Notes: generated from the letters alone by a model not told the origin. DNA of 64,000 nucleotides from Gammaproteobacteria bacterium (GCA_021324815.1 JAJPIJ010000030.1:1-64000); one strand, 5' to 3'; positions 5,494-62,162 are shown, counted from the stretch's first letter. Numbers and translations: made by a program.

Positions 5494-5513
5494 GATAGAC
5501 GGCAGGTTTCCTC

Positions 5514-35276: not shown

Positions 35277-37328
<2,052 letters not shown>

Positions 37329-38021: not shown

Positions 38022-38148
38022 GGGAGAAAGTGACAAGCCGGCCTCCCTGCTTTTCAAACGGCGGCCCCTTTGGGGCGTACAAGGTCGACCAAAGCAAATC
38101 GCGGGATTAGAATCGTCTCAATAACACTACCAACAGGTGCCCTCGCTC

Positions 38149-42304: not shown

Positions 42305-43998
42305 GGCGCGACGCTCCGGCGACGATTCCATTCCTCCGCCCCCGCGAGCGCCAGGAGCAGCACGCCGGTGGCGTGGTCGGCCAGCAATTCCGGTGGGTCG
42401 CCAAGGGAGCCGTCGAACAGGGCGCCGTCCGGGCGCTGCGCGCCGAGCAGGAAGTCCAGCAGCTGCCGGTGACGCGGCGAGGCGTGTTCGCCCACGAGTT
42501 GCAGGCACAGCGCCGCCTCGGCGGCCAGATCGGCATGTCCCTCCCGCATCACCCACGGCACCGCCATCAGCAACTCCTCCGTGCGCGTCTCCCAGCCCGC
42601 GGCAGTCATGGGCCGGCGCAGATAATGGCTGGTGAAAAAAAATTCATGCGCCAGCCAGTACAGGTCATAAACCCGTGAATGTCCGCGCCAGGGACGATCC
42701 GGGAAATGCACCCCCGTGTCCACGCCGAGGCTTTGCAGCATGCCGGCGATGATGAAGGCGTACACGGATGCCTCCCGGTCGCACAAATGCCGCAGATAAT
42801 CACGCAGCGCACCGGCTTCCAGATCGCCGGCGGGCAGACCGCGCTCTTTCAGGATGTACCAGGCGTCCACCCGCGCCATTCCCTCATGAGGCTTGAGTGT
42901 CGGGGGAAATGCCAGCGGTATCCTCCGCAACTCCCGCAGCGCCTCGCCCAGCACGGGTGGCAAATCAAGCCCGGCGTGCACGTGAGGCGCCCACGTCTCC
43001 AGCATGTGCAGGATCAGCGCCCGCAGCACCACGCTGAACTCGTCCCCGGACGCCGTGCAATGCAGGAAGGCCCGCGCTGTTTTGCGCAGATCGCCGGTGG
43101 GCAGCGCCCGATTTTCATCCTCCCTCGTCACCACCGGCCGCGTAATCAGTTCCGCGATGTCCTCCGCCAGCTCCCCGCTGCCGGGCTGGCCGCGCACCGC
43201 CGGAATGACGGCGGCGATGCTGTCGAGCACCAGCCGGTGGCCGCGCTCGTAGCGCTCGCGGAAACTGCCACCCTCCACGATCACCCGGTAGGGGGAACAG
43301 CGCCGCGCGCCGCGTTGCGCGGCCCATTCCACCTGCCAGCGGCTCTTGAACGCGATCTCCAGCGGCCGCGCGGCCGGCGGTTGCGCCGGCACGGGCACCG
43401 CAGCGGACGCCGCCGCGCGCAACGCCTCGCACGCCGCCTTTTCGTCCATGGACACCGCCCCTTCGGCGTCGCGGCTGGTCTTGACGCACAGGCGCGGCAC
43501 CGCCGGCGGCAGGGCCGCGCACAACACGTCGTCGCCTGCAATCAACGCCACCGGCAATCCTTGTTCCGCCGCCAGCGCGAGCACGATGTCGGCCTCGCTC
43601 AGACGGCGGCCGTCCAGCCACCAGTCGCATTGCACGCTGACCGTATGCGCGGCGAAGCCCGCGGTGCCGGCGGGCGCGTGCATGCCGACGCAGGCCACCG
43701 CATCCACGTCCTGGAAATAATGCGCCGCGTAAGCGTCCTCATCCAGCACCAGTTTTGCCAGCGGATGCAACGATTGCTGCCGCACATTGGCGCCCCTGGC
43801 GCCGCCGCGATGACTGTCGCTGACGACGATCTCTCCGTACCCCGCCGTGGCCAGTCCCTCGATCATTGCATTCACCTGTGCGGTCATGCGCGCGCAGGCG
43901 GCGTCATATTCCGCTGTTCCGGCGACAAGCGGCGGCAGCGTGTCGATGCCGGCGATGCCTTCCATGTCGGCAATCAGCAATATTTTTTTCACGTTCAT
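42301..43998 (-). CDS. M55 D-aminopeptidase fused to a helical C-terminal domain
   Basis: The first 270 residues of this 565-residue protein belong to the M55 (DppA) family of zinc D-aminopeptidases. The metal and catalytic residues of DppA (D8, E10, H60, H104, H115, E133) are matched by D11, E13, H63, H107, H118 and E135 by motif (IADMEGIAG, DSHRGGARG, VGMHAPAG, AAHTVSV). Residues from about 300 to 565 are helical and Trp/Tyr/Leu-rich with repeats such as LLMAVPWVMREGHADLA and LLDFLLGAQRPDGALFDG, recalling an alpha/alpha-toroid fold; this second part is not in DppA. MNVKKILLIADMEG at 43998 is the start: its ATG overlaps the ATP-grasp stop by 4 bases. A D-aminopeptidase here hints at D-residue chemistry, but this is inference. 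Confidence 0.85.
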   Translation of the reverse strand: MNVKKILLIADMEGIAGIDTLPPLVAGTAEYDAACARMTAQVNAMIEGLATAGYGEIVVSDSHRGGARGANVRQQSLHPLAKLVLDEDAYAAHYFQDVDAVACVGMHAPAGTAGFAAHTVSVQCDWWLDGRRLSEADIVLALAAEQGLPVALIAGDDVLCAALPPAVPRLCVKTSRDAEGAVSMDEKAACEALRAAASAAVPVPAQPPAARPLEIAFKSRWQVEWAAQRGARRCSPYRVIVEGGSFRERYERGHRLVLDSIAAVIPAVRGQPGSGELAEDIAELITRPVVTREDENRALPTGDLRKTARAFLHCTASGDEFSVVLRALILHMLETWAPHVHAGLDLPPVLGEALRELRRIPLAFPPTLKPHEGMARVDAWYILKERGLPAGDLEAGALRDYLRHLCDREASVYAFIIAGMLQSLGVDTGVHFPDRPWRGHSRVYDLYWLAHEFFFTSHYLRRPMTAAGWETRTEELLMAVPWVMREGHADLAAEAALCLQLVGEHASPRHRQLLDFLLGAQRPDGALFDGSLGDPPELLADHATGVLLLALAGAEEWNRRRSVAP

Positions 43999-44990
43999 TG
44001 CCCCGCGACGGGCGGCATGGGTTCCACGGCGGCGGCGGCGGCGGACAGTGATTCCGTGCGCGCGAAGGTCACCAGGTAGCGCGCCAGTTGCGTCAGCACG
44101 GCGGCCACGAACTCCGGACCAATCCACAGCAGATAGGGGCCCGGATTGCAGTCGAGATAAACGTGCCTGCCCTCCTCCGTGACGATGAGGTCCCAGGCCG
44201 CGAAATGCAGCCCCAGCCGTCGCGTAGCCGCCACGATGCGTTGCTGTTCCATCGCCGGCATGGCGTAATGGTCAAATCCCGCCGTGCCCGTGCGTGAATC
44301 GACATACTCGGCGCGGATGCGCAGGGCCAGCACCATCGCATCCGCCACCACGTGCACGCGTGCGACGCGGCCGCGCACGCGCTCCTGCATCAGCACCGGA
44401 CAGCAGCGGAATTCCTCGAGCCGCCGCCGATCCGCCGGCGTGACGAGACGGGTCGAACCGATGCCCATGGCGGGTTTCACCACCACCTCGCCAATCCGCT
44501 CGATGAATGACGCCGCGACCGTGGGATCATTGGTGGTCAGGGTGCGGGGGACATCGAAGCCCCAGGATTGAAGCTTGGCGTAGAACTGTGACTTGGTGTT
44601 GTGATCGGCGTAACCCGCGGTCAGGGGATTGACCACCAGCTTGCCGCGCGCCGCCAGTTCTTCGAAAAACCCATAGGCCGCCGCCTGATATTCCTGCTCG
44701 CGCAGAAACCGGCCGCGCCATTCGTTGTAAGAGACCATGTTCAACATGGGCGGCGGCGTGGGCGGCGTATTGGGCGAGGTGCAGCGGATGTGCACGGCGT
44801 GGATGCCGGCGAAGTCCAGGCCATCCCAGGCCAGCTCCCGCGTTCCATAGGACACCCGCGAACGGCTGGCGCCGCCCAGCTGAATGTCGAACATGCGCGG
44901 CTCCCCGCCCTCCCGTTTCACGGCTTCCGCGACGTACGACAGCTGCTCGCTGCCGCGGTCGGCAAAAAGCGCGATAACCGGCTTCTCCAT
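43995..44990 (-). CDS. ATP-grasp ligase (RimK-like), intact active site
   Basis: A 331-residue ATP-grasp protein. The Rossmann-like N-terminal domain is followed by the ATP-grasp part with candidate ATP-binding Lys133 (NTKSQFYAKL) and Lys172 (VVVKPAMGIGST). The metal site consists of Asp267, Asp280 and Asn282 (YLDCNPGP). ATP-grasp enzymes form amide, ester or thioester bonds through an acyl-phosphate. The closest type by pattern is RimK/amidoligase. It shows clear pattern similarity to the degenerate protein at 46276-47418. It lies in the peptide operon between the GNAT gene (32-base gap) and M55 (4-base overlap). It may add amino acids to, or cross-link, the Gly-rich peptide. Confidence 0.82.
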   Translation of the reverse strand: MEKPVIALFADRGSEQLSYVAEAVKREGGEPRMFDIQLGGASRSRVSYGTRELAWDGLDFAGIHAVHIRCTSPNTPPTPPPMLNMVSYNEWRGRFLREQEYQAAAYGFFEELAARGKLVVNPLTAGYADHNTKSQFYAKLQSWGFDVPRTLTTNDPTVAASFIERIGEVVVKPAMGIGSTRLVTPADRRRLEEFRCCPVLMQERVRGRVARVHVVADAMVLALRIRAEYVDSRTGTAGFDHYAMPAMEQQRIVAATRRLGLHFAAWDLIVTEEGRHVYLDCNPGPYLLWIGPEFVAAVLTQLARYLVTFARTESLSAAAAAVEPMPPVAGQ

Positions 44991-45022: not shown

Positions 45023-45730
45023 CTAAACCACGGGGTCGTAGGGCGCCGGCAGCGTATGGAACAGCGGACGGCCGGATTTCTCCCGTTCCTCGCCGCGCGC
45101 CAGCTTTTCCTTGCGCTTCCTCCATCCCTCCTGGTTCATCGCAAAAAAGGCGTATTTATGCCCCCCCAATTCCCGCGTTTCGACCGGCGTGTAACCCAGC
45201 CGCTTGATCACGGCGTTGGCGGCGTGGTTGTCGTCACGCGATCGCGACCCGCACAGCGGCACGTTCAGATGCTCGAACATGTAATGGCCGACGGCGTCGT
45301 GCGTATTGAGCGCGTGGAAGGCGTTACGGTCGGCGGGATCCGGGATTGCGTAACCAAATTCCCAGAAAAAATTATCGATGACGGGCGGATACATCACCAG
45401 AAAACCGATGCGCTTGCGCGTCGCCACCGCCTTGATGATGGCCAGCACCAGGACGCCCGCACGGTAGCGGATCAACATCGACGGCGCGCCCAGCTCGCCA
45501 TAGCCGAACATCTCGGTAATTTCCGGGGAATGGAATTGTTCGATCATCCAGGACAGATCCGCCGGCGTCGGCGGCACCAGATACACCGTGCGCCGCTGGA
45601 TGCCGTACACCCAGCGCGACCAGTACGGACTCCGCGCGCCCATCCAGCAGCGATAGGCCAGAGAAGTCGCGGGCCGGCGGAGCCGGGGATGCTTGCATAC
45701 GCGCAGGAGCCAGTGCAATTTGTTGCCCAT
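45023..45730 (-). CDS. GNAT-fold N-acyltransferase
   Basis: A 235-residue protein with a GNAT core. Residues 50-70 hold VYLVPPTPADLSWMIEQF. The acetyl-CoA region is not canonical, but the C-terminal GNAT helix is clear: SRDDNHAANAVIKRLGYTPVETRELGGHKYAFF. The first 45 residues are basic and aromatic, and not part of the fold. A related GNAT may transfer acetyl or, in aminoacyl-transferase relatives, an amino acid. It lies just behind a terminator hairpin in the peptide operon. Which group is moved cannot be told. Confidence 0.65.
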   Translation of the reverse strand: MGNKLHWLLRVCKHPRLRRPATSLAYRCWMGARSPYWSRWVYGIQRRTVYLVPPTPADLSWMIEQFHSPEITEMFGYGELGAPSMLIRYRAGVLVLAIIKAVATRKRIGFLVMYPPVIDNFFWEFGYAIPDPADRNAFHALNTHDAVGHYMFEHLNVPLCGSRSRDDNHAANAVIKRLGYTPVETRELGGHKYAFFAMNQEGWRKRKEKLARGEEREKSGRPLFHTLPAPYDPVV

Positions 45731-45819: not shown

Positions 45820-46068
45820 TTACGAGCTGACGTTGATGCTGCCGATGGAGGTGTTGTCAGACGCGCTGGCATTGCCACCCTTGCCACCGCCGGCATCACC
45901 GCTGCCGGAACCCGAGCCGCTGCCTTTCGCAGTGCCCACGCCGGTGCCGATGCCCGCGCCCACGCCACCGTGGCTGCTGGCGTCGCCACCCATCTTCATG
46001 TTGCCGCTCTGCTGGACGCCGCCCATGCTGCTGGAACTGCCACCACCGCCTTTGCCCATCAAACCCAT
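45820..46068 (-). CDS. Gly/Ser-rich 82-residue peptide, candidate precursor of the system
   Basis: This 82-residue peptide has 29 Gly and 17 Ser, no Cys, Pro, Glu, Tyr, Trp or Phe, and only three Asp. It begins MGLMGKGGGGSSSSMGG, has a mid part GAGIGTGVGTAKGSGSGSG, and ends KGGNASASDNTSIGSINVSS. The gene has an excellent AGGAG box 7 bases before its ATG and lies between a sigma-54-type promoter and a terminator, so I am confident that it is translated. The KGG before NASASD could be a double-glycine junction, but the exporter's C39-like domain lacks the catalytic Cys. Neighbours on the same strand are a GNAT, two ATP-grasp proteins, M55 and export genes. No homologue is recognised; the role as substrate is inference. 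Confidence 0.8.
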   Translation of the reverse strand: MGLMGKGGGGSSSSMGGVQQSGNMKMGGDASSHGGVGAGIGTGVGTAKGSGSGSGSGDAGGGKGGNASASDNTSIGSINVSS

Positions 46069-46275: not shown

Positions 46276-47418
46276 CTATACACCTGGTTTTACCGCCTGG
46301 TCCGCGACATCTTGGTCATCCTTGGTTTTATCCTGATTCGCATCCGCGCCGGCGTACTTGCTGTGCTCCATCTCAAATTGAATCTGGAGCATGCGGCGTA
46401 AAAACAGGGTGGGGCGCTCGAGGCGCGGCGGTAAAGCATGCGGTTCGACGGTGTCCCGCGCGGTACGGGCGGAGAACTGCCGTTCCAGCGCCTCCAGGAG
46501 GCGTTCCGCAACCGGTGGCGGCAATGCATCGAGGGATGGATCGAAATCCACGTCGAAGATCACCGTCTCCCCGCCGGCGTGGACATCGAAACTCACCTCG
46601 ATCCACCAGGCGCTCCCGGCGCCGGCCAGCCGCCCGAGTTCGGCCATCACCCTTTCCCCGGGCGTGAATGGCAGCCATGTTTCCAGCGATTCCATGCGGG
46701 CGAGCTCGCCGTGATCCCCGCCCGCTTCCAGTTCCTCGACCGGCCGCAATGAGGCCGGCTCCACGCTCAAACACAACAGACATTCCCCGCCAAACAGCCA
46801 GGCCCGCAGTTGTCGCCGGCCATCGTGGCCGGCCAGCATCACGGGCGGCTTGTCGGGGGCAATCAGGAACAATCGCTGCTTGTCGGTGAACCTCTGCCAG
46901 GCGGCGCGCCCGCTGGCCGGCCGCCACCAGACCATGGGATGGCGCTCCATGAAGGCCTCCACCTCCGCCATGTCGTTGCTGCACAGTAACTCAGGGACAC
47001 GAAAGCCCTGGCGCTGAAGCAGAAGCAGATGTTCCACAAGCATGAACTGCCGGGCGATCAACCTGCGTGAATTGATGACTTTCGCGCCGCGCCGCTCGAG
47101 CTCGGCAAACAGGCTCTCCCATGCGCTGTAGCGCTGCTGTTCCAGCAGATGATCATGGCGCCAGAGACTCCAGTCCGCAGTCCGCAACGCCGGCGGCAGG
47201 ACCGGATCCATGTACGGCAGCCCGCGCACCCACAGCCAGTCCAGCCTGCTCAGGTCCATGCCGCGGCACGCGACGGTTTCATCGTCCAGCACAAACTGCG
47301 GATCCTCCCGCCACGACAGATCGAAAACCATGCAGGATCCCGGGGCGGCGGAGTTCAGCCGCCCCGCCAGTTGCAACGCGAAGCTATCTTCGGGATGGCA
47401 GAAGATTCCTACGGCCAT
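46276..47418 (-). CDS. ATP-grasp-like protein with degenerate active site
   Basis: This 380-residue protein aligns by pattern with the intact ATP-grasp protein at 43995-44990: both have an N-terminal domain, a WR....LLEQQ/LREQE block, EL.RRGAKVINS / ELAARGKLVVN, and GF.VPELLCSND / GFDVPRTLTTND. The key residues differ: the first ATP Lys is absent (QFMLVEHL), the second is Arg166 (WWRPASGR), and the metal motif is FDVDFDPS in place of LDCNPGP. It probably does not hydrolyse ATP, and may bind the peptide or regulate its partner. A TTG six bases before the ATG at 47418 is an alternative start. A Lys/Asp/Gln-rich tail of about 25 residues follows the fold. It follows the three TolC-like genes by 49 bases. 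Confidence 0.65.
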   Translation of the reverse strand: MAVGIFCHPEDSFALQLAGRLNSAAPGSCMVFDLSWREDPQFVLDDETVACRGMDLSRLDWLWVRGLPYMDPVLPPALRTADWSLWRHDHLLEQQRYSAWESLFAELERRGAKVINSRRLIARQFMLVEHLLLLQRQGFRVPELLCSNDMAEVEAFMERHPMVWWRPASGRAAWQRFTDKQRLFLIAPDKPPVMLAGHDGRRQLRAWLFGGECLLCLSVEPASLRPVEELEAGGDHGELARMESLETWLPFTPGERVMAELGRLAGAGSAWWIEVSFDVHAGGETVIFDVDFDPSLDALPPPVAERLLEALERQFSARTARDTVEPHALPPRLERPTLFLRRMLQIQFEMEHSKYAGADANQDKTKDDQDVADQAVKPGV

Positions 47419-47467
47419 GGGCAAGGATCACGATGAGTCACTCCCGGCATGGCGTGGCGGAAGTTCC

Positions 47468-49549
47468 CTATTTCCCATCAGCGATGGCCGGTTTGCGCGA
47501 GGTGATGTAACCGAAAACCTGGGTGAAATACTTGAAGATGCCGTATCCCGCCAGCGAGTGCAGGCGCTGGAGGTCCACGCCGCTCGGCGCGGTGGCCTCA
47601 CCGTAGGCCGCGGCGATGATGCCCTCGGCCGCCAGGAGATTCGACTCGGCGATCTTGTTGTTGATCAGCGCGTTGATGTGGTCCTGTTTGGCCTGCAGCA
47701 ACTCCTGCGATTTGAGCACGAGCTCCAGTTCGCGCACATCGCCGCCTTTTTCACGCCGTTCCACCAGCTTGTCGTAGGCCGCCTGCGCAAACCCCACATT
47801 TTTCTCGGTGATGTCGATCTGGGCGCGCGCGGCGAACACGCCGGCCAGGGCGTCGTTCACCTGCTGGCCCACGTTGTTCTCGACATCCCGCACCGTGAGC
47901 GCCTCCGCTTCGTTGCCCAATTCGGCCTGCGTGAACAGCGCCTTGAAGGCGCGATTGCCCCACGGATAGCGGTAATTCAGATTGTAATTTTTCGACAACG
48001 TGTCGGGGTCGCCCACGGCGCCGATGCTCTGCCAGTAGGTCCGGTAACCGAGCACCGACGAGTCCTGGGACGAGGTGATGTTGGCGGTGAGCAGCAGGTC
48101 CGGCCGCAACTGGTGGCGCTGGAATTCCAGCGCGATCTCGCTCTGCTCCTTCGACACCTTCTCGGCGGCGATCTCCGGCCGGTGGTCCAGCGCCAGCTGC
48201 ATCGCCTGCCCCGCATCGACCACCAGCAGTTTGTCCAGCAGCGGCCGATAGTCGCGCGGCAGCAACAAGTAAGGATCGGTGGACTCCCCCGAGCTTTCCA
48301 GCAAGGCGGCCAGATTATTGGAGGCCGTCACGACATTGACCCTGGCGGCCTCTTCCAGCGTCCGCACCCGCGCCAGCTCGGCGTCGGTCTGTACCTTGCC
48401 GTAGGCGGTCGTCAATCCCTGCTCGAACAGGTGGTTGGTATGTTCGGCGATCTTCTCGACATGCTGGCGGTTGTCCATGACGACGGCAAGGTTTTCGATG
48501 CTGCGCACCAGCTCCCAGTATTGGGTGTCCACGGTCAGCAGGGTGGAATTGATGATGGTGCGCAAATCCCACACCGAGCGTTCGGCGCTCTTTTCCGCCT
48601 GCCGCAGATTCACATCGTTGGGCGCCTGCGGGCCGAAATCCTTGCCGCCCGGCACCGGCACGCTCAGGTTGAACACCATGCTGGTGGCGTAAGGCCGGTT
48701 GTTCGACAGGCGCAAATCATTGTTGTAGTAAACCTTGTGGTCGGTGGTGAAGAGGCCGACGCTGAACGCCGGCCCCCAGGGCAATTGCTGATCCACCTCC
48801 ACGCTGTAGTTCATGGTCTTGGTCGGGCCGGTGGCCGAGCCCTTGCTGGCGTGCACTTCCTTCATGCAAGCGCCGCTGGACAGTTTGGCGTCATCCTCAC
48901 AGAAATGGCCGGGCGGGAGCGGGCTGGCGGTCACTTGCAGAAACCCGAGCAAATTCACTTGTGGTCCAGTGACGAAAGGACTCGTGGGAATGGTGATGAC
49001 ACCAGGTTGCAGCAGCTTCGACTCGACAAGCGGTTGCAGTTTCAGACTGACATCCCCCTCACAACCAAAGGAACAGGGGTTGAAGGTCTTGATGGTCACC
49101 GTGCCAAAGTGACTGCGTTCGTAGGTGCTGCTCTGATCGAAACCGACGGAAAACTTGAACACCGGATTGAAAACGGCGTCGGCCTCCTTGATGGCCTCTT
49201 CGATGATTCCCGCGTTCTCGTGCCCCACCTTGATGCTCAAATTCTTCAACAGCGCCTCCATGGCGGCGGCGCGCAACGGCAGCAAGCGCACCTTCCTCGG
49301 CGCCACGTATTGCTGCGTGCCGCCCTGCCCCTCCAGCAACTGCCTGGCGACGGACTGCAGGACTTCATCGGAGGCCACCGGCGCATCCACCCCCAGCAGG
49401 TCGGTCAGGCGGGCATATTCCCGTCCCCCCTCGCCGCCGGCGGTTCCCGCCGCGGTCGCCTCCGCGGCGGCGGCACCGGCGCACAAGCCCGGGCCGCAGC
49501 CCGCCAGCAGCAGCGCCAGCAACCGGAGTCGGGAAGGCTTACCGCTCAT
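47468..49549 (-). CDS. TolC-like outer membrane protein 1 of 3, possible lipoprotein
   Basis: A 693-residue TolC-family protein, much longer than E. coli TolC. Its start MSGKPSRLRLLALLLAGCGPG carries an LAGC lipobox (Cys18), so it may be lipid-anchored as OprM is. An N-terminal extension of about 200 residues contains the shared block KNLSIKVGHENAGIIEEAIKEADAVFNPVF, then two efflux repeats, the second with ALDHRPEIAAEKVSKEQSEIAL and LEFQRHQLRPDLLL. Its ATG lies within the last 11 bases of the preceding gene; GGAG lies 10 bases upstream of the ATG. It is one of three TolC-like genes in tandem. Confidence 0.85.
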   Translation of the reverse strand: MSGKPSRLRLLALLLAGCGPGLCAGAAAAEATAAGTAGGEGGREYARLTDLLGVDAPVASDEVLQSVARQLLEGQGGTQQYVAPRKVRLLPLRAAAMEALLKNLSIKVGHENAGIIEEAIKEADAVFNPVFKFSVGFDQSSTYERSHFGTVTIKTFNPCSFGCEGDVSLKLQPLVESKLLQPGVITIPTSPFVTGPQVNLLGFLQVTASPLPPGHFCEDDAKLSSGACMKEVHASKGSATGPTKTMNYSVEVDQQLPWGPAFSVGLFTTDHKVYYNNDLRLSNNRPYATSMVFNLSVPVPGGKDFGPQAPNDVNLRQAEKSAERSVWDLRTIINSTLLTVDTQYWELVRSIENLAVVMDNRQHVEKIAEHTNHLFEQGLTTAYGKVQTDAELARVRTLEEAARVNVVTASNNLAALLESSGESTDPYLLLPRDYRPLLDKLLVVDAGQAMQLALDHRPEIAAEKVSKEQSEIALEFQRHQLRPDLLLTANITSSQDSSVLGYRTYWQSIGAVGDPDTLSKNYNLNYRYPWGNRAFKALFTQAELGNEAEALTVRDVENNVGQQVNDALAGVFAARAQIDITEKNVGFAQAAYDKLVERREKGGDVRELELVLKSQELLQAKQDHINALINNKIAESNLLAAEGIIAAAYGEATAPSGVDLQRLHSLAGYGIFKYFTQVFGYITSRKPAIADGK

Positions 49550-51572
49550 GGCGTTTTTCTCCGGCAAAGACCGGGACGATGTTTTGCGTCAGCAATGCCT
49601 TGACGCGGCCCTCCTCGGCGCTGGTCTGCGCCGTGCGATCGGCGTATTTTGACGGCAGTTCGCCCACGGCCGCCAGCCAGTTGGCCTCCGCCTGTTTGGC
49701 GCTGATGACGGCATTGACCCAGTCGTTGGTGGCCTGCAACAGTTGCTGGCTCTGCTGGATGATTTCGTACTCGGTCACGGTGCGCGAGCGCTGCTGATCG
49801 ACGGCCTTTTGATAAGCGGTCTGCACCAGCTGCCAGTTGCGGCGGGCGATGTCCGTGCGCGCACGCGCGCTCACCAGGTTCACCGCGGCGTCGCTCAAGG
49901 CGTGCGTGAGGGTGTTCTCGGTGCTTCGCAGCGTGAGTTCGCTGATGTCACGATTGTATCCGGCCTGCGCATAGCCCGCCTCGGCGGCCACGTTGCCCCA
50001 CTGGCGCGTCAGCTGCAGCGAGTAGTTCTGCGAGATGATGTCCGGCTTGAAAACGCGGGCCATGGCGGAATTCCACTCGTGGTAGCCAAAGACGCTGTTG
50101 GACTGGAGGAAATTGGCGCCGGCGTTGAAGGTCAGATTGGGCTGGCGGTTGATGTCGCTTTGCCTCAGCAGGACATCCGCGGTCTCGACATTGTAACGCT
50201 GCGATTGCAGCAGCGGGTTCATGGCCACCTGCTCCCTCTTCAACTGGGCGGGATTCACGTCCAGCGGCGCGGCCAGGCTGACGCTGTACTGGATGGGCAG
50301 ATACACGGCGTCTGCGCCGCCGTCCAGCAGAGGCTGGAGTGCGTTGGAGGCGGTGATGTAGGCGTTCTTGGCCTGCTCAACCTGGTTTCTCACCCGCTCC
50401 AGCTCGGCCTGCACCTGGGCGCGGCTGTAGTCGGTAATCTCGCGCAGTTGATACATTTCCTCGGTTTTCTTCAACAACTGCTCGACGCTCTGCTGGTTCT
50501 GCAACGCGGCGTAAAAGTTGTTGGCGGCGCCGACCAGATTCCAATAGCTCAGATCCACCGCCAGCAGGGTGGCGTTGATGACATTCTTGACGTCCCAGAC
50601 CGCGCGCTCATCGTTTAGTCTCGCCAGGTGGTTCTGCACGTCGGCGGAGGCCGCGTCGGGGCCGTAGTGGGCGCTGCCCGGGACGGGTATGCTGTACGAC
50701 AGCGACGTATTCACCGTCCACGGCCGGTGATAGCTGCCCGCCGTCGGATGCAGGCTGCCGGCGTTGTTGACGAAATCCGCCACCTTGTAGACGGTCTCGT
50801 AGTTGAGATTGATGCTGGCCCCCCACGGCAGCTGCTGGGTGACGGTAAAGTCAGCGTTGTACTTCTCGTTGTCGCCGGTCACGCCATCCGGATGGGCCGT
50901 TATCACGTCGCCCGGCCTGTACCCCGCCGCCCTGGGCTGGTCAAAGCCAAGGAATTGCACCGGCGAATTGTCAAAGAATATGAAATCGTTGTGCTTGCCA
51001 TCCGCCGTCAATATGGGCGCCGGAATAAGGGAGCATTCCGGCGGATTGTTGGGCGCCGGGGGCGGATCACAATGGGTGGTCGCCTTGTGGAAGCGGCTCA
51101 CCGTGACCTTGCGCTCGAAGTCCCGGCTGTCGCTGTAATTGAACGACAGGTTCAGCACCGGGTCGAACAGGGCCCTGGCCTCCTCCAGTGCCGCAGCCAC
51201 GATGCCCTGATTCAAATGCGATCGCTGGATGGTCAGGTTCTTGGTCAATGCGGAAAGCGCGACCGCGTGCGGATCGATTTCCACCAGCTTCTTGCCGGCG
51301 AGCGTCTGCCAGACGCCTGCCGTGCTTTTGGCGTTGAAGGCGTCGCGGATGACGTCGTTGATGGCCTTCTCCCGTTCCGCAACCCCCTCGGCGGTCTGCA
51401 GATCGGCGATCTTCATCGAGGCCGTGTTGACCTCCCTGCCGGCGGGGGCCGGGGATTCCTGGCCGGGTTCCTGGGCCCGGGAGCCGCCGGCAATCAAGGT
51501 GAGCATGGCCGCGAGCCAGGCGGCGCGGCAGCGGCCGGCGGGAGGATTCGTCATGCTCATGGGCGTGTTCAT
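49539..51572 (-). CDS. TolC-like outer membrane protein 2 of 3
   Basis: A 677-residue TolC-family protein with a signal peptide (about residues 1-33, ending GGSRAQ). It shares with its neighbours the N-terminal block ALTKNLTIQRSHLNQGIVAAALEEARALFDPVLNLS in pieces (LEEARALFDPVLNLS) and has the channel repeats (DVQNHLARLNDERAVWDVKN, MNPLLQSQRYNVETADVLL). The ATG overlaps the stop of the preceding gene by 4 bases, so coupling is tight. Export channel role by family. Confidence 0.87.
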   Translation of the reverse strand: MNTPMSMTNPPAGRCRAAWLAAMLTLIAGGSRAQEPGQESPAPAGREVNTASMKIADLQTAEGVAEREKAINDVIRDAFNAKSTAGVWQTLAGKKLVEIDPHAVALSALTKNLTIQRSHLNQGIVAAALEEARALFDPVLNLSFNYSDSRDFERKVTVSRFHKATTHCDPPPAPNNPPECSLIPAPILTADGKHNDFIFFDNSPVQFLGFDQPRAAGYRPGDVITAHPDGVTGDNEKYNADFTVTQQLPWGASINLNYETVYKVADFVNNAGSLHPTAGSYHRPWTVNTSLSYSIPVPGSAHYGPDAASADVQNHLARLNDERAVWDVKNVINATLLAVDLSYWNLVGAANNFYAALQNQQSVEQLLKKTEEMYQLREITDYSRAQVQAELERVRNQVEQAKNAYITASNALQPLLDGGADAVYLPIQYSVSLAAPLDVNPAQLKREQVAMNPLLQSQRYNVETADVLLRQSDINRQPNLTFNAGANFLQSNSVFGYHEWNSAMARVFKPDIISQNYSLQLTRQWGNVAAEAGYAQAGYNRDISELTLRSTENTLTHALSDAAVNLVSARARTDIARRNWQLVQTAYQKAVDQQRSRTVTEYEIIQQSQQLLQATNDWVNAVISAKQAEANWLAAVGELPSKYADRTAQTSAEEGRVKALLTQNIVPVFAGEKRHER

Positions 51573-53527
51573 TCGTACAACCCCTGGCTGGCCTGCAACT
51601 GGACGTAGGCCTGATGATAACTCACCGTGGCGTCGATGTACCGCGAGCGGGCATCCAGCATGTCGCTCAACGTGCGCAGCAACTCAAACTGGCTCGCCAG
51701 CCCCAGGTTCTTCAGGCGCTCCACCTTGGCGTAGGCCAGTTCCGCGAGTTCCATGTTCTGTTGCGCCAGTTGCCGCTGGGTACGGGCGCTTAAAAACTGG
51801 GCCAATGCATTATTGACCTGCTGGGTGATGCCCAGTTCGGTCTGCGACTGATTGTCGACACTGGTATTCACGGCCAGACGGGCCTTCTGCAACTGCGCCT
51901 TTTCCGCCTGCAGGCCAAAAGGCAGGCGGTAGCTGACGCCCACGAAAAAATCGCTGGCGTCGGGCTCGACCAGGTTCATCAGCGAACTTTCCACGTTGCG
52001 GTAGCCGAAGGCGGTGTCGAATTGATTCAACGCCGCCGAGGCGGAAAAGGAAAGCTCGGGACGCACCTGGTTCTCGGCAAATTTGAGATTGATCTGCGCC
52101 TTCTCCACCTCCCCCTGGCTGATCTTGAGTTCGCGGCGGTTATCGAGCGCGGTCCGCCGGACGGCGGTCGCATCCACCGCGTAATCCTGGCCGAAGGCCT
52201 GCGTGTAGCCCGAGGGCACGACGATGGTGTCCGGCGGGTAATCCAGGAGCTCGGCCACGGCATTGGAGGCCAGCACATAGTTGTTCCATGCGATTTGTTC
52301 GCGATCGCGGAGATTTTCCATTTGCGCCTCGGCCTGGGCCATGTCGTAGGCGGTGACCAGCTGCTGGTCGAATTGCCGCCGCGTGCTGGCCACGATCTGC
52401 TCCAGGATTTGCCGCTGGGCGGCGATCACCTCGATTTGCTTGAGCGCGCCAACCAGCGACCAGTACTGCACCCACATGCCCGGAACCCCGCCCACCACGC
52501 CGCCGAGGACCTGGTTGCTGACGGCTTCGATCCGCCATTCGGCCTCCTGCAGGCTGATGACCGCCTGCTTGATGCCGATGGATTGGGTGTTGCCGTATTC
52601 GCCGAAGTTGCGGGCATACGGCAGCGGCGTGGAAAACGACAGGCTCAGATTGGAAGTCCACGGCAGGCGGCTGCCGATGTTCAGGGGCGGCGTGGTCAGG
52701 CCGGCGATATTGGGGACGGGGCCTTCCAGAAAATCGGGGAAGGTCCAAAAATCCTTCTTGCGCCGGTTGACGGTGAGATCCGCCTGTACGTTGCCGCCCC
52801 ACTGGAAATTCTTGAGCAGGCCGAATTCCGCACCCCACAGAAACTGGTCATAGAAGCTGCCGCTGGCGTGCTCGGTCTGCTTGTTGAGTATCACGTCGTT
52901 GGTGCAGGAGCCCTGGCCGCTGTTCGGGTCGGTGTTGCCATTGACCAGCTGCCCGTCGACGATGACGCAGACAAAATTGGAATTGACCGCGGGCTGTCCA
53001 TTGGCGGTGCTGAAGAAATCCTTCTGGAATTGGTCGGGGTCAAACTGGGAGAATTTTTCACGCAGGCGCAGTATTTCATCCGTGCGCCCGCCGGCATCGA
53101 GGCGCTGATGGTTCAAGGTCACTGAAAAAAATGGATCGAAGGCCGCCGCAGCCCCGGTCAGGGCGGCATCGGCAACGTCACGGGCGCGTTGCTGGATGAT
53201 GACGGCGAGGTTGCGGCCGCGAGCGAGATCGGCGATGTCGCTCTGACGCAGTTCGGAGATGTTCTTGTGACTGAAGAACCCCTCCGCGCCCGGCCGCAGT
53301 CCGGCGACCGCCTGGTTGATCAAATCGCGCCCCGTCTCCTCGCTGGTGATGGATTCGAAGCGCTGGACGATTGACGCGGCGGACTCATCCGGCGCCGGAA
53401 GATTGGTGTCGATATTGGCGGGGGCGGGTTCCGGCGCTGCGAGCGGGCGGGAAAAACCCGCCCAGAAAAGAAGGAGCCCGCCGAGGCAGGTGACGGACGG
53501 GCGTAATAAATACACGCGCATCCTCAA
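51569..53527 (-). CDS. TolC-like outer membrane protein 3 of 3
   Basis: A 652-residue TolC-family protein with a signal peptide (to about residue 31, SRPLAAP). The block ARGRNLAVIIQQRARDVADAA and AAAAFDPFFSVTLNH correspond to the shared N-terminal block, and the channel repeats follow (IGIKQAVISLQEAEWRIEA, LDNRRELKISQGEVEKAQI). It is the first transcribed of the three, 153 bases after the FHA gene, and overlaps the next by 4 bases. The gap holds only a weak AT-rich inverted repeat. Confidence 0.87.
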   Translation of the reverse strand: MRMRVYLLRPSVTCLGGLLLFWAGFSRPLAAPEPAPANIDTNLPAPDESAASIVQRFESITSEETGRDLINQAVAGLRPGAEGFFSHKNISELRQSDIADLARGRNLAVIIQQRARDVADAALTGAAAAFDPFFSVTLNHQRLDAGGRTDEILRLREKFSQFDPDQFQKDFFSTANGQPAVNSNFVCVIVDGQLVNGNTDPNSGQGSCTNDVILNKQTEHASGSFYDQFLWGAEFGLLKNFQWGGNVQADLTVNRRKKDFWTFPDFLEGPVPNIAGLTTPPLNIGSRLPWTSNLSLSFSTPLPYARNFGEYGNTQSIGIKQAVISLQEAEWRIEAVSNQVLGGVVGGVPGMWVQYWSLVGALKQIEVIAAQRQILEQIVASTRRQFDQQLVTAYDMAQAEAQMENLRDREQIAWNNYVLASNAVAELLDYPPDTIVVPSGYTQAFGQDYAVDATAVRRTALDNRRELKISQGEVEKAQINLKFAENQVRPELSFSASAALNQFDTAFGYRNVESSLMNLVEPDASDFFVGVSYRLPFGLQAEKAQLQKARLAVNTSVDNQSQTELGITQQVNNALAQFLSARTQRQLAQQNMELAELAYAKVERLKNLGLASQFELLRTLSDMLDARSRYIDATVSYHQAYVQLQASQGLYE

Positions 53528-53680: not shown

Positions 53681-55018
53681 TCAATTGGCGCGGGTCACCG
53701 CCCCCCATTTATCCACCACCAGCACGTCCTTGTCATCCACATCGCCCACGATGCCGTTGAAGAGCAGGTAGTTCACCGACAGCGCCAGGTTGTTTTTCTT
53801 GCGCAGCTCGGCGAATTGATCGCGTAATTTCCTGATCTGCTCCATTTCCCCCTTCGAGGGGGCGGATTTGGCGTCCTTGGCTGGATTTGGATACCGCTGG
53901 GCAAACGCCTTGATCCGGATGACCGGCCCGGCCAGCTCCAGCAGGCTGGCGACATCCGAATAAATCTTCTTGCTGTCGTCGTCCTTGGTCTCCGCACCGC
54001 CGGCGCTCAGCTTGTCGAATTCCGACTGCGCCTGCGCCAGCAGGGGAATGGCCTGATCGGGCTTGCCCTGCTGGATGAGGTTCATCAGATTGCGTTCGAA
54101 CTGCAGAAACAGCACCTGGGCCATCACCGCCTTCAATTCCGTCGAATTCGGGTATTGGGAGGTGGCCTCGCTCAGTTCCGCCATCATGTTGCCAAGCTGG
54201 GTGGCCTGCTTTTGATGCTCGGCGGCGGAATAGTGCCCGGCGCTGTCCTCGTTGTCGCGCATGAAGGCCTTGACCTCGGCGCGGGAGTTCTTCAGCGCGG
54301 CCTCCGCGCCGGAACCGCCGCGGCCGAAATACCAGTAGCCGCCGCCGGCGATGGCCGCCAGCAACACGGCCAGCGCCGCCCATTTAAGTCCTGCGCCCTT
54401 CTTCCGCACAGCAGCCGGCGTCATCGCCGCCGCGTGCGCCGCGCCGCGGCGCGCCGGCGTGGCCGCCGCCCGCTTTTCAGCCTCCTGCTGCCTGTTTTTG
54501 GCGTCCAGCAACATCGCCGCCGCCATGAGATTGGAGCCGACGAACATGGTGCGCTCGGAAACCGTCTTGTCCGGATCGAAATCCGCCTCGTGTTTCCTGC
54601 CGTCCTTGGTCACGGTACCCTTGATGTCCGGACGCACCATGACAAACTGAAACGGTATCTTGCCAATCTTGATGGTGTCGCCCGGCTTCAACGGCGCGTC
54701 CTCCACCTTGGCGTCATTCACGTGCACGCCGTTGGTGCTGCCCATGTCCTGCACCCGCCAGCCGCCGTTGCTGAAATAAAAACGCGCGTGCCTCTTGGAA
54801 ATGCCGGTGGCGTTCAACGGCACGGTGTTCTCCTCGCCACGACCCACCGTTTGTTCCTTGCCGCTCAGATCGATTTCCAGCCCGCGGGTGGGATCGGGCA
54901 GCCGGCTTTGATCCAGGCAGATGAGCTTGCAGGGCAGCGGGCCTGCGGCCGCGCCCGCCGGCCGGGCGGGAACTTCCACGGTACCCGTGAACATCACGGT
55001 CTTGTCATCACTGCTCAT
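53681..55018 (-). CDS. FHA-domain membrane protein of the export cluster
   Basis: A 445-residue protein with no signal peptide. An FHA domain spans about residues 45-125, with VGRGEENTV, GISKRHARFYFSN and GSTNGVHVN as phosphothreonine-binding motifs. One transmembrane helix lies at about 212-231 (LKWAALAVLLAAIAGGGYW). A helical C-terminal domain that should be periplasmic follows (about 235-445). Two short stretches, DDKTVMFTG near the N-terminus and DPDKTVSERTMFVG after the FHA domain, are Thr-rich and may be phosphorylation sites. No Ser/Thr kinase gene is in the window. It sits between the ABC exporter and the TolC-like genes and may assemble or gate the exporter. Confidence 0.82.
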   Translation of the reverse strand: MSSDDKTVMFTGTVEVPARPAGAAAGPLPCKLICLDQSRLPDPTRGLEIDLSGKEQTVGRGEENTVPLNATGISKRHARFYFSNGGWRVQDMGSTNGVHVNDAKVEDAPLKPGDTIKIGKIPFQFVMVRPDIKGTVTKDGRKHEADFDPDKTVSERTMFVGSNLMAAAMLLDAKNRQQEAEKRAAATPARRGAAHAAAMTPAAVRKKGAGLKWAALAVLLAAIAGGGYWYFGRGGSGAEAALKNSRAEVKAFMRDNEDSAGHYSAAEHQKQATQLGNMMAELSEATSQYPNSTELKAVMAQVLFLQFERNLMNLIQQGKPDQAIPLLAQAQSEFDKLSAGGAETKDDDSKKIYSDVASLLELAGPVIRIKAFAQRYPNPAKDAKSAPSKGEMEQIRKLRDQFAELRKKNNLALSVNYLLFNGIVGDVDDKDVLVVDKWGAVTRAN

Positions 55019-55042: not shown

Positions 55043-58000
55043 TCAATTGACTCGTTGCAGCACGGGCGCTTCTTCCGGCGAAGGCGAGGGCGCCACCAAA
55101 TCCAGCGGCGGCAAATCGAACTGGGTTTGCGCCATGGCGTAATACAGTCCCTTGTATCCCATGGATTTGAGATATTCCCTGTCCAAAAGTTGCCTGTGGG
55201 TGCCCTTTTCCTGCACCTGACCGTCCTTGATGAAGCAGATCATGTCCGAATCCATCACCGTCGTCAGGCGGTGCGCGATTGAAATTGAGGTGCGCCCCGC
55301 CAGTATGCCCTGCATATTTTCCATGATGCGCGCCTCGGACTCGTTGTCGAGGGCGCTGGTGGCCTCGTCGAAAATGAGGATCTTGGGCTGGCGGTACAGC
55401 GCGCGGGCGATGCAGATGCGCTGCCGCTGGCCGCCGGAGACCCCGATGCCCTTTTCCCCCACCAGCGTGTTGTAGCCCAGCGGGTAGCGGATGATGAACT
55501 CATCGGCGCCCGCGAGCCTCGCGGCCTCCTTCACCGCCTGCATGTCCGGCTCCGGATCGCCGAGCGCGATGTTCTGCGCCACCGTGCCGCCGAACAGAAA
55601 GCTGTCCTGCAACACCACGCCGATGTTGGAGCGCAGCGAGGACAGCTCCAGCGTGCGGATGTCGCGGCCGTCGATCTTGCAGAAGCCGCTCTGTGGAATG
55701 TTGAAGCCCAGGATCATCTTGGCGATGGTGCTCTTGCCGCAGCCGGAGGGCCCGACGAAGGCCACGCGCATACCCGGCTCTATCTCCAGGTTGAAATTGC
55801 GCATGATGTTGTTTTCCTTGCCGTTGGCCACGTAGCTGAAATTGACGTCCTCGAAGGTGATCTCGCCGCGGCAATGCGCCAGGGTGGCGGGCATGCTGTC
55901 CGGCTGGAGCATGGTTTGTTCCGGCTTGACGGAGAGCACGTCGCCGACGCGGTCAATGGCGATGCGCACCTCCTGGAACTGGTTGATCAGATCGAGCATG
56001 CTCAGAATCGGCCCCATCACCGCCCCCATCAGCATCTGGAAACCCATCAATTCACCGATGGTCATCTGCCCCGCCATGACCGAACTGGCGCCGACGAACA
56101 GAATGGCGATGGTGGTGCCCGACTGCACCGTCTCGTACAGGCCCTTGGAAATCAGTTCCAGCTTCTGGCTCTGGAATTGCAGGTTGATGGTCTCGGTCAT
56201 CTGGTTTTCCCAGCGCGAGCGGGCGAAATATTCATTCGACGTCGCCTTCACCGCCTCGATGCCGTTCAACGACTCGATCAGATAGCTCTGCGACTGGGAA
56301 TTGGTGACGAAGGTCTTCTGCGCCAGCATCTTGATGCGCGGCACGAAGAACCACAGCAGCAGAAAATACAGGGGGATGGAACACAGCGTGATGATGGTGA
56401 GGGTGCCGTTGTAGGAAACCATCATGAACAGGTAGATCACCACCATCACCAGGCTCATGATGGTGGAGATGGTCGAGCCGGCGATGATGTGCCGGATTTT
56501 CTGATTCTCACCGAAGCGGGCCAGGATTTCGCCCTTGTTGCGGCTCAGGAAGAAATTCATCGGCAGGCTCAGCACGTGCCGGTAAAACTCGGCCACGAGT
56601 TTCAAATCGATCCGGGCAGTGGTGTAGGCCAGCAGCAGGGCCTGCGCCGACTTCGACAGCACGGTAAACAAGGTCACCAGCGCCATGCCCACCAGCATGA
56701 TCTTGAGCAGGTCGGCGTCCTTGTGGACCACCACGGTGTCGACGATGCTCTGCACGAACAGCGGCGTGGCCAGCCCCAGGAAATTGATGGTCAATGCCGC
56801 GAGCAGCCCCTCGGCGAAATACTTCCAATGCGGCAGGATGTAGTCGAGGAAGTGCCGCAGGGGGCTCTTGGGCGGCTCCAGGCGGGTGAATTCCACCGTC
56901 GGCTCCAGGCCGATGACCACCCCCCGGCTCGGGTCCTCCCGCTCCACACCGCTGACCTGCGCACGGGTCCAGCTGGTGATGAATTGCTGTCGCGGCAGCC
57001 GGCCCTGCCCGTAGAGGGAATCCGAGAAGTACACCTCCTTGTCCGTAATCTTGTAGATCACGGAATAGCGGTATCCCTCCCAGCCGACGATCACGGGCAG
57101 TTGCATGCGCTCCAACTGCTCGAACGTCACGGCATAGGCGCGCGCGGAAATGCCGAGGATCTCGGCCGCGGTGATGATGGCGTTGGGCGTCGGGTTGGCG
57201 ATGGAGAGATTGGCGATCTCGCGCACCTGGCCGAGCGAAAAGGGCTTGCCGTAATGCTGCACCACCATCGTCAGGCAGGCGGCGGCGTTGTCCTGCTCGC
57301 TGAACTGGCGGACGTTCGGGAAAGTATCAATGGCCTTGGCATGCTTGGCGAGGAATTCCTCCTCGGTCACCGCGTCGGCGAGCTTGATGCGCTGGTCCGC
57401 GCCCTCGGCGCGGCTCTTGATGTCCTTCTCCTCCTTCTCGCGGATGCGCATGGAATTAAACCGCACCCGCAGCTTTTCGTGCAGCGCCGGGTTGATGGCG
57501 AGGATCTTCTGGACCTCGGGCTCGTTGATGACCAGCACCGTGGTGTCCACCACGCACAGTGCCGAATGCGGCTGGATGCCGTTGGTGCCGACATCCGGCA
57601 GCGCTCCGCCCTCGCCGATGAGCTCGCGCGCGCCGACGCGATCCAGTATCACCTTCTCACCGGAAAGCAGGGTGCGTTCGAGATCCACCGAACCGGTCTC
57701 GATGTAGTACAGCCGGCGGTCTTCCATGTCCTGCTTGAAAAGATACTTGCCCTTCTTGCCCTTCTTGATGCCGATGCGGCTTAAGATGGCGGTGAATTGC
57801 TCCGGCGTGTACTTGGCCGCCCCCAGCATGCCGCGCAGGCGCTGCCCCAGCTCGACGAGCCCCACCTGCGTCTTGAAGGTGGCCGACATGGCGGGGCGGC
57901 CGGCCAGCAGCGGCCGCACCTTGTCGGCCGGCAGGAACAGCAGGCTTGAATCCTCCGAGGCGGTGATTTGGTAATCCCAGGGCTTGGGCTGGATCAGCGA

Positions 58001-58258
58001 AAATTCGCCGAAGGTGCTGTCGGTGCCGAACTCACCGAGACTGACGCGCCTGCCGGCCTTGGTCTCCTTGAGCCGGAGCTTGCCGGAGTACACCACGTAC
58101 ATGCCGGCCATGTTCTGGCCCTGCTCGGCGATCACCTGGCCCGCGCTGTAGGTCCTCACCTCGAAGAGCGGCGCAAGTTGTTGCTTGTCATCGTTGTTCA
58201 GACCGCTGAACATCAGGTGGCTGTTCAATACAAACCGGACTGCCTCTTCTTTACTCAT
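55043..58258 (-). CDS. ABC exporter with two cNMP-like domains and a C39-like domain
   Basis: A 1071-residue protein. Residues about 10-130 and 150-270 are two cyclic-nucleotide-binding-like domains (FGEFSLIQ; IGEGGALPD), both without the usual PRAAT Arg. A C39-like domain (about 310-450) follows, reading RQFSEQDNAAACLTMVVQHYG: the catalytic Cys expected at 324 is Asn and the next Cys is at 328, so it is not a competent leader peptidase. Then come six transmembrane helices (about 480-780) and the nucleotide-binding domain with GPSGCGKSTIAK, VSGGQRQRICIARAL and KILIFDEATSALD. The layout is like the HetC-type exporters of cyanobacteria. It lies between the FHA and HlyD-like genes. Confidence 0.92.
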   Translation of the reverse strand: MSKEEAVRFVLNSHLMFSGLNNDDKQQLAPLFEVRTYSAGQVIAEQGQNMAGMYVVYSGKLRLKETKAGRRVSLGEFGTDSTFGEFSLIQPKPWDYQITASEDSSLLFLPADKVRPLLAGRPAMSATFKTQVGLVELGQRLRGMLGAAKYTPEQFTAILSRIGIKKGKKGKYLFKQDMEDRRLYYIETGSVDLERTLLSGEKVILDRVGARELIGEGGALPDVGTNGIQPHSALCVVDTTVLVINEPEVQKILAINPALHEKLRVRFNSMRIREKEEKDIKSRAEGADQRIKLADAVTEEEFLAKHAKAIDTFPNVRQFSEQDNAAACLTMVVQHYGKPFSLGQVREIANLSIANPTPNAIITAAEILGISARAYAVTFEQLERMQLPVIVGWEGYRYSVIYKITDKEVYFSDSLYGQGRLPRQQFITSWTRAQVSGVEREDPSRGVVIGLEPTVEFTRLEPPKSPLRHFLDYILPHWKYFAEGLLAALTINFLGLATPLFVQSIVDTVVVHKDADLLKIMLVGMALVTLFTVLSKSAQALLLAYTTARIDLKLVAEFYRHVLSLPMNFFLSRNKGEILARFGENQKIRHIIAGSTISTIMSLVMVVIYLFMMVSYNGTLTIITLCSIPLYFLLLWFFVPRIKMLAQKTFVTNSQSQSYLIESLNGIEAVKATSNEYFARSRWENQMTETINLQFQSQKLELISKGLYETVQSGTTIAILFVGASSVMAGQMTIGELMGFQMLMGAVMGPILSMLDLINQFQEVRIAIDRVGDVLSVKPEQTMLQPDSMPATLAHCRGEITFEDVNFSYVANGKENNIMRNFNLEIEPGMRVAFVGPSGCGKSTIAKMILGFNIPQSGFCKIDGRDIRTLELSSLRSNIGVVLQDSFLFGGTVAQNIALGDPEPDMQAVKEAARLAGADEFIIRYPLGYNTLVGEKGIGVSGGQRQRICIARALYRQPKILIFDEATSALDNESEARIMENMQGILAGRTSISIAHRLTTVMDSDMICFIKDGQVQEKGTHRQLLDREYLKSMGYKGLYYAMAQTQFDLPPLDLVAPSPSPEEAPVLQRVN

Positions 58259-59792: not shown

Positions 59793-60680
59793 TCAGGCTG
59801 GCGCGATGCGCACCTCGTGTTCCAGCCATTCCGCGAACAGGCGCTCGCTGATTTGCTCCTTCAATTCATCGCTGTATTCGGCGTCCTGCACGTCATCCAC
59901 GCGGTACAACACCCAATAGCCATCCTGCGCCACGGGGCCCACCAGCGCGCCGGCCGTCGAGGCAAACAGCGCCTTTTCGACGTCGGCGGGCAGCATACCC
60001 CAGCGGATGCGGCCGAGATAGCCCCCGGCCACCCTGGTATTCTGCTCCAAGGAATGCTCCCTCGCCAGCACGGAAAAATCCCGCTTTCCGGCGCGGATTT
60101 GAGCGGCAAACTCCTCCAGCGGCGGCGCCTCCCGCAGCACCATGCGCGAGACGGAAAGGGTCTTCAATTCCCGCCGGTGCGCGTCGAAGTATTCGCGTAT
60201 CCGGGCCTCCGGAAACAGCGTTTTTTTCAGGCGCTGTCGCAGCAGTTCGATTTCGATTTGCTTCTGCCAGTGATCGAAGGTGATCCCCAGCCATTTGCAG
60301 TACTCGTTCATCGCCGTGGCCTCAAGCAGCCCCATGCTCTCCCGTCGGGCCTTGCTGTAGGCATGCAGCTCCTCTTCGCTGACGGACAGTCTCAGTTCAC
60401 GCGCCTTGAGCATGACAACCTCGATCGAGATGATCTGATAGATGGCATTGCGAAAGACGCCGGTGGTCTTGAGATAGAGCAGCACGTCATCGACGGTGAT
60501 GGGCTTGCCTCTGACCGTGGTCAGCGCCCGGGGTTGCGACACGGCTTCCGCGTGCGGCGCCGCCGGCATCCTGCTGCGAGCCCGCGAGCGGGTGCTGCGC
60601 TCCAGGCTCAGGAAATCCAGCAACGTCATGTCGTGGACGCCGCCCTGCTGATTCAAGGTTTGCTCTCCCCCCGTGACCAT
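59793..60680 (-). CDS. Parvulin-type peptidyl-prolyl isomerase (PpiC/SurA-like) in the export cluster
   Basis: A 295-residue protein, part of it with a SurA-type N-terminal helical domain (VDDVLLYLKTTGVFRNAI, EELHAYSKARRESMGL) and a parvulin domain (about 165-260: SVSRMVLREAPPLEEFAAQI, FSVLAREHSLEQNTRVAGGYLG). No signal peptide is visible, so it may act in the cytoplasm on exported substrate, as such proteins next to HetC-type exporters probably do. Start is uncertain: ATG 60680 gives MVTGGEQTL; a TTG at about 60659, or the ATG of MTLLDFLSLERST (about 60629), are possible. Confidence 0.8.
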   Translation of the reverse strand: MVTGGEQTLNQQGGVHDMTLLDFLSLERSTRSRARSRMPAAPHAEAVSQPRALTTVRGKPITVDDVLLYLKTTGVFRNAIYQIISIEVVMLKARELRLSVSEEELHAYSKARRESMGLLEATAMNEYCKWLGITFDHWQKQIEIELLRQRLKKTLFPEARIREYFDAHRRELKTLSVSRMVLREAPPLEEFAAQIRAGKRDFSVLAREHSLEQNTRVAGGYLGRIRWGMLPADVEKALFASTAGALVGPVAQDGYWVLYRVDDVQDAEYSDELKEQISERLFAEWLEHEVRIAPA

Positions 60681-62071: not shown

Positions 62072-62162
62072 GGATACGAGCCTCCTCCGGCTTGGGAAAG
62101 CCGGGCGACGGCCGCACGCGGTCGGTCCTGAAGTCCTGGCGGGGACTGAATTCAGCGCCGCT

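Follow-up and report, generated by a model that had tools for sequence, protein, structure and literature searches.

Three Co-conserved TolC-like Paralogues Encoded with One Type I Exporter: A Possible Heterotrimeric Channel Associated with Glycine-Rich Peptides

Introduction

Why would one exporter be accompanied by three different outer-membrane channel proteins? TolC channels are textbook homotrimers, and a single gene suffices to provide all of their subunits. The locus described here lies in a 64,000-nucleotide stretch of gammaproteobacterial DNA (the window). According to the original prediction, it encodes three related TolC-like proteins of 693, 677, and 652 residues side by side, with reading frames that overlap by 11 and 4 bases, behind a single ABC exporter and a single adaptor; these three proteins were proposed to form a heterotrimeric channel. 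We examined the genes, their relatives in other genomes, and the fold of their products.

Results and Discussion

The triad and its exporter

The open reading frames and their matches to the Pfam OEP family confirm three adjacent TolC-like genes of the predicted lengths:

51569..53527, minus strand: TolC-like paralogue A, 652 residues from a TTG start, the exact start being uncertain (Pfam OEP, E = 4.1e-26)
49539..51572, minus strand: TolC-like paralogue B, 677 residues, with an ATGA overlap with A (Pfam OEP, 3.9e-22)
47468..49549, minus strand: TolC-like paralogue C, 693 residues from an ATG, or 699 residues from a TTG at 49567 (Pfam OEP, 2e-24)

The PF02321 bit scores of A, B, and C are 92.4, 79.4, and 86.9, against a Pfam gathering cut-off of 22. 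The overlaps are 4 bases between A and B and 11 bases between B and C, and a Shine-Dalgarno-like stretch precedes the start of C. B shares 33% identity with C and 25% with A; orthologues in relatives find the A protein of the window as their best match. One of the three had also been taken for a lipoprotein. We rejected this assignment for C, since the lipobox (LAGC) occurs in only 2 of 15 C proteins (the window and G101) and is missing even from the same-genus genome G133.

The triad comes after a set of exporter genes in the same orientation:

53681..55018, minus strand: FHA-domain protein, conserved beside the ABC gene in relatives (Pfam FHA, 3.7e-17)
55043..58258, minus strand: ABC exporter with two cNMP-binding domains, a C39-like domain, a TMD, and an NBD (Pfam)
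58313..59713, minus strand: HlyD-family periplasmic adaptor (Pfam HlyD_3, 5.9e-15; TIGR01843, 1.8e-28, under cut-off)
59793..60680, minus strand: PpiC-like protein (Rotamase, 1.2e-10; nearest peptide-maturation family TIGR04500, 5.1e-21, 75 bits against a cut-off of 180)
60710..62215, minus strand: sigma-54-type activator, a possible regulator of the operon, start uncertain, in the same position in G133 (Pfam Sigma54_activat, 5.1e-69)

An ABC transporter, a HlyD-type adaptor, and an outer-membrane factor (OMF) are thus encoded together, which is the layout of a type I secretion system or tripartite exporter. Each cluster contains one ABC and one HlyD gene, and in this respect the predicted organization was correct. 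The ABC exporter matches TIGR01846 (1.2e-172) and TIGR03796 (8.7e-147), in both cases under the cut-off. The catalytic Cys, His, and Asp of its C39-like domain are replaced by Asn, Arg, and Ser in the window and in G133; the catalytic triad is intact in most relatives. Since the gene arrangement is repeated with unchanged order in distant genomes, a chance association can be excluded.

Fold of the paralogues

AlphaFold2 models were obtained for A (pLDDT 80.4, pTM 0.69) and B (pLDDT 82.2, pTM 0.67). Both match TolC as well as other OMFs, which gives both proteins a predicted TolC fold. The best PDB match of the A model is TolC (1ek9). The B model aligns to TolC over residues 99–648, with a Z score of 27.3 against 1ek9, 395 aligned residues, and an rmsd of 6.2. 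The helices of TolC and a common set of conserved positions, including the tip threonine (T392/T380/T387) and a PD motif, are retained in all three paralogues.

These alignments do not bear out the proposed extra N-terminal part of about 200 residues, said to be absent from classical TolC and marked by a shared KNL..A..EA...FDPVF block. The first residue of mature TolC is matched to residue 99 in the B model, and HMM alignments equate TolC residues 4–55 with profile positions 85–135 of B and 88–139 of A. The block therefore corresponds to the TolC N-terminus, and we rejected the idea of an extra N-terminal domain. The true additions relative to TolC are a short N-terminal extension (approximately residues 35–98) and a long insertion of about 120 residues that separates the two strands of repeat 1 in the first beta hairpin. 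In the models, repeat 1 has four extra strands in B and two in A, inserted between the pair of strands expected there, which gives 8 predicted strands per B subunit and 6 per A subunit, against 4 in TolC. In A, this insertion is modelled with low confidence and contains two cysteines that are invariant in the family. A is without a C-terminal extension.

We also looked for gate residues that might complement each other across the paralogues. In the HMM alignments, the Asp at position 153 of the TolC bridge R367–D153 is kept in A, and a conserved Arg at position 367 is found in neither A nor B; C aligned too weakly for this comparison. No obvious pair of this type was found, which leaves the idea of a bridge split between paralogues without support.

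One of each in every complete cluster

We searched overlapping samples, two from the class (274 and 369 genomes), one from the phylum (398 genomes), and one from the Magnetococcales class (48 genomes), and scanned about 85,000 species genomes with the N-terminal half of the ABC transporter as query. The triad family was found in 17 genomes, including that of the window. They belong to the Gammaproteobacteria and the Magnetococcales, with one Rhodospirillaceae and, from a second phylum, one Nitrospirota genome. One carrier of the cluster is a named isolate, Granulosicoccaceae sp. strain I2M11 (L057), the only such isolate seen, and no member of the peptide family described below was detected in it. 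Fifteen of the 17 encode a single copy each of A, B, and C, some in clusters cut by contig ends. In the remaining two (G233 and G550), the contig stops where A is expected, so that the third paralogue is not visible. Apart from these two cases, none of the 17 genomes holds an orthologous cluster with just one or two copies, a pattern which had been named as evidence against a heterotrimer. G171 contains a candidate single-copy relative (109 bits) that adjoins an adaptor-like gene of the efflux type; it looks like a generic OMF and was set aside.

In a phylogenetic tree, each of the families A, B, and C is separated from the remaining sequences by a branch of its own (ultrafast bootstrap/SH-aLRT support of 83/89, 91/97, and 69/87). 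The labels change three times on this tree, which is the minimum possible, compared with an average of 26.1 for shuffled labels. Three of the five outgroup sequences (OG_L001, OG_L002, and OG_L006) are probably antisense reading frames, which affects the rooting alone. Because the tree separates the paralogues with the fewest possible changes, we conclude that the families split before the sampled lineages diverged. A, B, and C are three orthologous families, each present as a single copy per genome. Candidatus Magnetocorallium paracelense (Nitrospirota) has also kept all three, although they lie apart from one another on contigs C77, C24, and C102, surrounded by unrelated genes.

Overlapping reading frames

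In 12 clusters, we measured how far each stop codon lies from the start of the following gene, using predicted start sites. At the A>B junction, every one of the 12 has a start codon at −4 or −1. The B>C junction has an overlapping start in all 12, at −4 or −1 in 9 of these. Overlaps at the other junctions were counted as follows: PPI>HlyD 0/4, HlyD>ABC 0/6, ABC>FHA 0/9, FHA>A 1/10, and C>DS1 5/11 (DS1 is described below). The 12 clusters share descent, and their overlaps are therefore not 12 independent events. Overlaps at −4 and −1 couple translation, and the genes that they join are reported to code, in many cases, for subunits of heteromeric complexes (PMC10666635).

ATP-grasp proteins and a glycine-rich peptide

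Beyond C, the window encodes four further proteins:

46276..47424, minus strand: DS1, a degenerate ATP-grasp-like protein and the next gene after C; DS1 and GRASP profiles cross-match
45823..46068, minus strand: Gly-rich peptide of 82 residues, the probable cargo, with the C-terminus DNTSIGSINVSS; a conserved family in triad genomes
45023..45730, minus strand: GNAT acetyltransferase-like protein, seen only here and in the same-genus genome (Pfam Acetyltransf_3, 1.1e-6)
43995..44990, minus strand: GRASP, an ATP-grasp ligase (nearest graspetide synthetase family TIGR04187, 2.2e-23, 83 bits against a cut-off of 350)

The ATP-binding motifs of GRASP are intact; in DS1, an Arg replaces the ATP-binding Lys of GRASP in 10 of 10 proteins. 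GRASP was found in 15 of the 17 triad genomes; it was not detected in G550, and G664 gave a DS1-like match only. The GNAT gene is present in two copies in L024.

Members of the peptide family have about 77–98 residues, 22–40% of them Gly. They carry the motif KSGGDA in the N-terminal part and a second motif, resembling GGDVxDNTSIGDINI, at the C-terminus. The members tested gave no match to any Pfam or NCBIfam model. Their genes adjoin ATP-grasp genes in many clusters and are dispersed across some genomes. The family was detected in 15 of the 17 triad genomes, the exceptions being G145 and G661, and in 0 of 7 other genomes tested. The genome of the window contains one match, compared with 16 in the Nitrospirota genome, 9 in G233, and 7 in G101.

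Related pump genes also occur without the triad. A sister system (G581 and G515) combines sigma-54-type, PPI, ABC, HlyD, and FHA genes with a single ordinary OEP gene, and contains neither GRASP nor the peptide. G317 (97% complete) and G665 encode a close ABC transporter, and triad, GRASP, and peptide are all missing. These patterns indicate that the triad is distributed with the peptide/ATP-grasp module and not with the pump alone. Triad and pump genes lie on separate contigs in G446 and G709; tight linkage between triad and pump is therefore not universal.

How the three paralogues may work together

With these observations in hand, we turned to the question as to what such a gene set may build. 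The machine that we propose would be one type I exporter, consisting of the ABC transporter with its C39-like domain, the HlyD adaptor, and the FHA and PpiC-like proteins as helpers. This exporter would be dedicated to small Gly-rich peptides handled by the pair of ATP-grasp proteins, and three diverged TolC paralogues, all of them obligate, would make up its outer-membrane channel. Overlapping reading frames may ensure that A, B, and C are made in coupled amounts, and the three proteins would most likely join as one mixed trimer on the single adaptor. Three parts of this model are inferences, namely a shared pump for A, B, and C, the peptide as its cargo, and a mixed trimer, and our confidence differs between them: use of all three paralogues by the single exporter is likely, the Gly-rich peptide is, with slightly less confidence, the probable cargo, and assembly of A, B, and C as a 1:1:1 heterotrimer is the leading reading, to which we give an even chance.

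The presence of one A, one B, and one C per cluster, the frame overlaps, the tree, and the sister system with its single TolC-like protein all fit the heterotrimeric channel that was originally predicted. They stop short of demonstrating physical assembly. Frame overlap in an operon and 1:1:1 retention are also compatible with three homotrimers and with a division of labour. The differing strand numbers predicted for A and B make the geometry of a mixed barrel less clear, and the aligned sequences suggest no obvious complementary R367–D153 pair among the paralogues. The contig separation in G446 and G709 also counts against the mixed trimer, as do the genomes in which the peptide (G145 and G661) or GRASP (G550 and G664) was not detected.

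Three separate homotrimers might instead share one pump and differ by cargo, condition of use, or surface loops. Characterized relatives of TolC are indeed homotrimers, and several genomes encode many peptide paralogues (16, 9, and 7 matches in the Nitrospirota genome, G233, and G101). Alternative channels on one pump also have a precedent in RsaFa and RsaFb (PMC3034196). We nevertheless consider this arrangement unlikely, although less so than the two that follow: there is always precisely one member of each family, with overlapping frames; peptide matches range from 1 to 16 while the channel count stays at three; and the independent loss or duplication expected of alternative channels was not seen. 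Alternatively, one or two paralogues may form the conduit, and another, most likely A, may be an accessory protein of the same system with a TolC fold, for example a surface anchor, a plug, or an assembly factor. A is the most diverged of the three (25% identity to B), with invariant cysteines, fewer predicted strands, and no C-terminal extension. Yet all three proteins have kept the TolC helices, the tip Thr, the PD motif, and the conserved positions, and the A model equals the B model in its match to TolC, which makes an accessory role the least likely of these alternatives.

A further possibility concerns the cargo, which might be some other product, such as a large surface protein, with the peptide and ATP-grasp genes doing a separate job. 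A TpsB gene adjoins the operon, LapD/LapG-like genes and MBG-repeat adhesin fragments lie next to it beyond the window, the C39 catalytic residues are lost in this genome, and two triad genomes are without a detected peptide. This proposal is nonetheless improbable, since most relatives are without an adhesin neighbourhood, whereas ATP-grasp genes and peptides are common to them. Moreover, TpsB systems rely on their own outer-membrane transporter.

The mixed A+B+C trimer, if correct, would have an asymmetric gate and meet the adaptor with three distinct docking faces; it would also offer a test of how trimers assemble in the outer membrane. Full-text literature searches that covered few subscription papers returned no report of a hetero-oligomeric TolC. 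Whether the locus encodes the first natural example, an asymmetric channel with a possibly enlarged barrel that exports new ATP-grasp-associated Gly-rich peptides, is in our judgment evenly balanced. The peptide family itself suggests that Magnetococcales and other environmental bacteria export a class of peptides, possibly modified, that is still unexplored.

Comparison with known systems

Among known clusters, the rosaritide graspetide system comes closest. MirABCD combines an ATP-grasp protein (TIGR04187), a PpiC-like partner (TIGR04500), and a peptidase-containing ABC transporter (TIGR03796), and MirC is an essential partner of the rosaritide synthetase (PMC13097080). The ATP-grasp, PpiC-like, and C39-type ABC proteins of the window resemble MirB, MirC, and MirD, and match the same TIGR families. 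TIGR04500 proteins have also been found among the genes near ATP-grasp loci, in a paper whose text does not mention TolC or Magnetococcales (PMC8939145). In contrast to rosaritide, all matches in the window fall below the curated cut-offs. No TIGR04187-, MvdC-, or MvdD-type synthetase is found over its cut-off (the best is TIGR04187, 83 versus 350 bits). TIGR04500 stays under its threshold (75 versus 180 bits), though it is still the best family match of the PpiC-like protein, and the ABC transporter of the window lacks the catalytic Cys, His, and Asp of C39 peptidases. The Asp of the DFR motif appears to be replaced: at the position which we take to be the DFR site from the family motif, placed by eye, 10 of 10 homologues read T-[ILV]-R or V-[AI]-R. 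This motif is described as critical for the activity of graspetide synthetases (PMC13097080). The locus also adds a second, degenerate ATP-grasp protein, HlyD, FHA, and three OMFs, and its cargo would be Gly-rich. Given the sub-cut-off matches, the apparent replacement of the DFR Asp, and the Arg for Lys exchange in DS1, the system is graspetide-like rather than a graspetide system, and we withheld that label.

The probable cargo is reminiscent of CdzC and CdzD from Caulobacter, small Gly-rich proteins that are exported by a type I system and retained on the cell surface (PMC5380434). The Cdz system differs in that it uses a genome-wide TolC homologue and operates without ATP-grasp proteins; the KSGGDA and DNTSIGDINI motifs are not described there (PMC5380434).

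Caulobacter also provides a case of a type I pump that is served by more than one OMF: RsaFa and RsaFb, called the only known example, are alternative channels for it (PMC3034196). We found no further published case. RsaFa and RsaFb are unlinked and interchangeable, whereas the three families of the window are strictly co-conserved and encoded in a coupled operon. With TolC and the HlyB-HlyD-TolC exporter, finally, the locus shares the ABC-adaptor-OMF layout and, in the A and B models, a structure that aligns to TolC (1ek9) and to other OMFs. It differs from them in the long insertion in the first hairpin, with two to four extra predicted strands, and in its three obligate OMF paralogues in place of the one gene that provides the TolC homotrimer.

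Features in and around the exporter operon

Around the triad of TolC-like paralogues, and elsewhere in the window, we located the following features.
37215–37320 (−), TPP riboswitch (60.5 bits)
38137–39495 (+), classical single TolC gene, apart from the triad (OEP, 6.2e-33)
42301–44127 (−), M55 D-aminopeptidase domain fused to a DUF6895-like region, adjoining the ATP-grasp ligase gene
45823–46068 (−), small Gly-rich peptide with the conserved C-terminus DNTSIGDINI
46276–47424 (−), ATP-grasp-like protein with Arg replacing the ATP-binding Lys
55043–58258 (−), exporter's ABC transporter, with a C39 peptidase domain (residues 312–436) whose active site is replaced
62163–63893 (−), TpsB (FhaC-like) gene, upstream of the exporter operon

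The ATP-grasp-like gene immediately follows gene C, the third paralogue of the triad, in most clusters, and the encoded protein is likely a pseudo-enzyme partner. The small peptides ending in DNTSIGDINI form a previously undescribed family, which is also present at loci L024, L025, L042, L044, L045, L047, L053 and L153–L182, with up to 16 matches per genome (the maximum occurring in the Nitrospirota genome).

Replacement of the C39 active site is shared by the window and the congeneric genome G133, and is partial at L046, L060 and L063; the other relatives retain intact sites. Leader cleavage would thus appear to have been lost more than once.

Exporters in relatives without the triad

At L120 and L121 (genomes G581 and G515), a sister exporter has a single ordinary TolC and no ATP-grasp. 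Its accessory genes match those of the triad exporter (sigma-54-type, PpiC and FHA, with a PP2C-like gene nearby). A close ABC transporter occurs without triad, ATP-grasp ligase or peptide at L122/L060 (G317) and L063 (G665). The HlyD reading frame of G317 is short (297 residues), and the G317/G665 system is perhaps decaying or repurposed.

A possible adhesin system upstream of the operon

Outward from the TpsB gene, locus L009 contains:
3960–7457 (−), genes resembling LapD and LapG (the latter a C93 peptidase), along with adhesin fragments carrying MBG repeats

Together with TpsB, these genes and fragments may represent a CdrAB-like adhesin system under c-di-GMP control.
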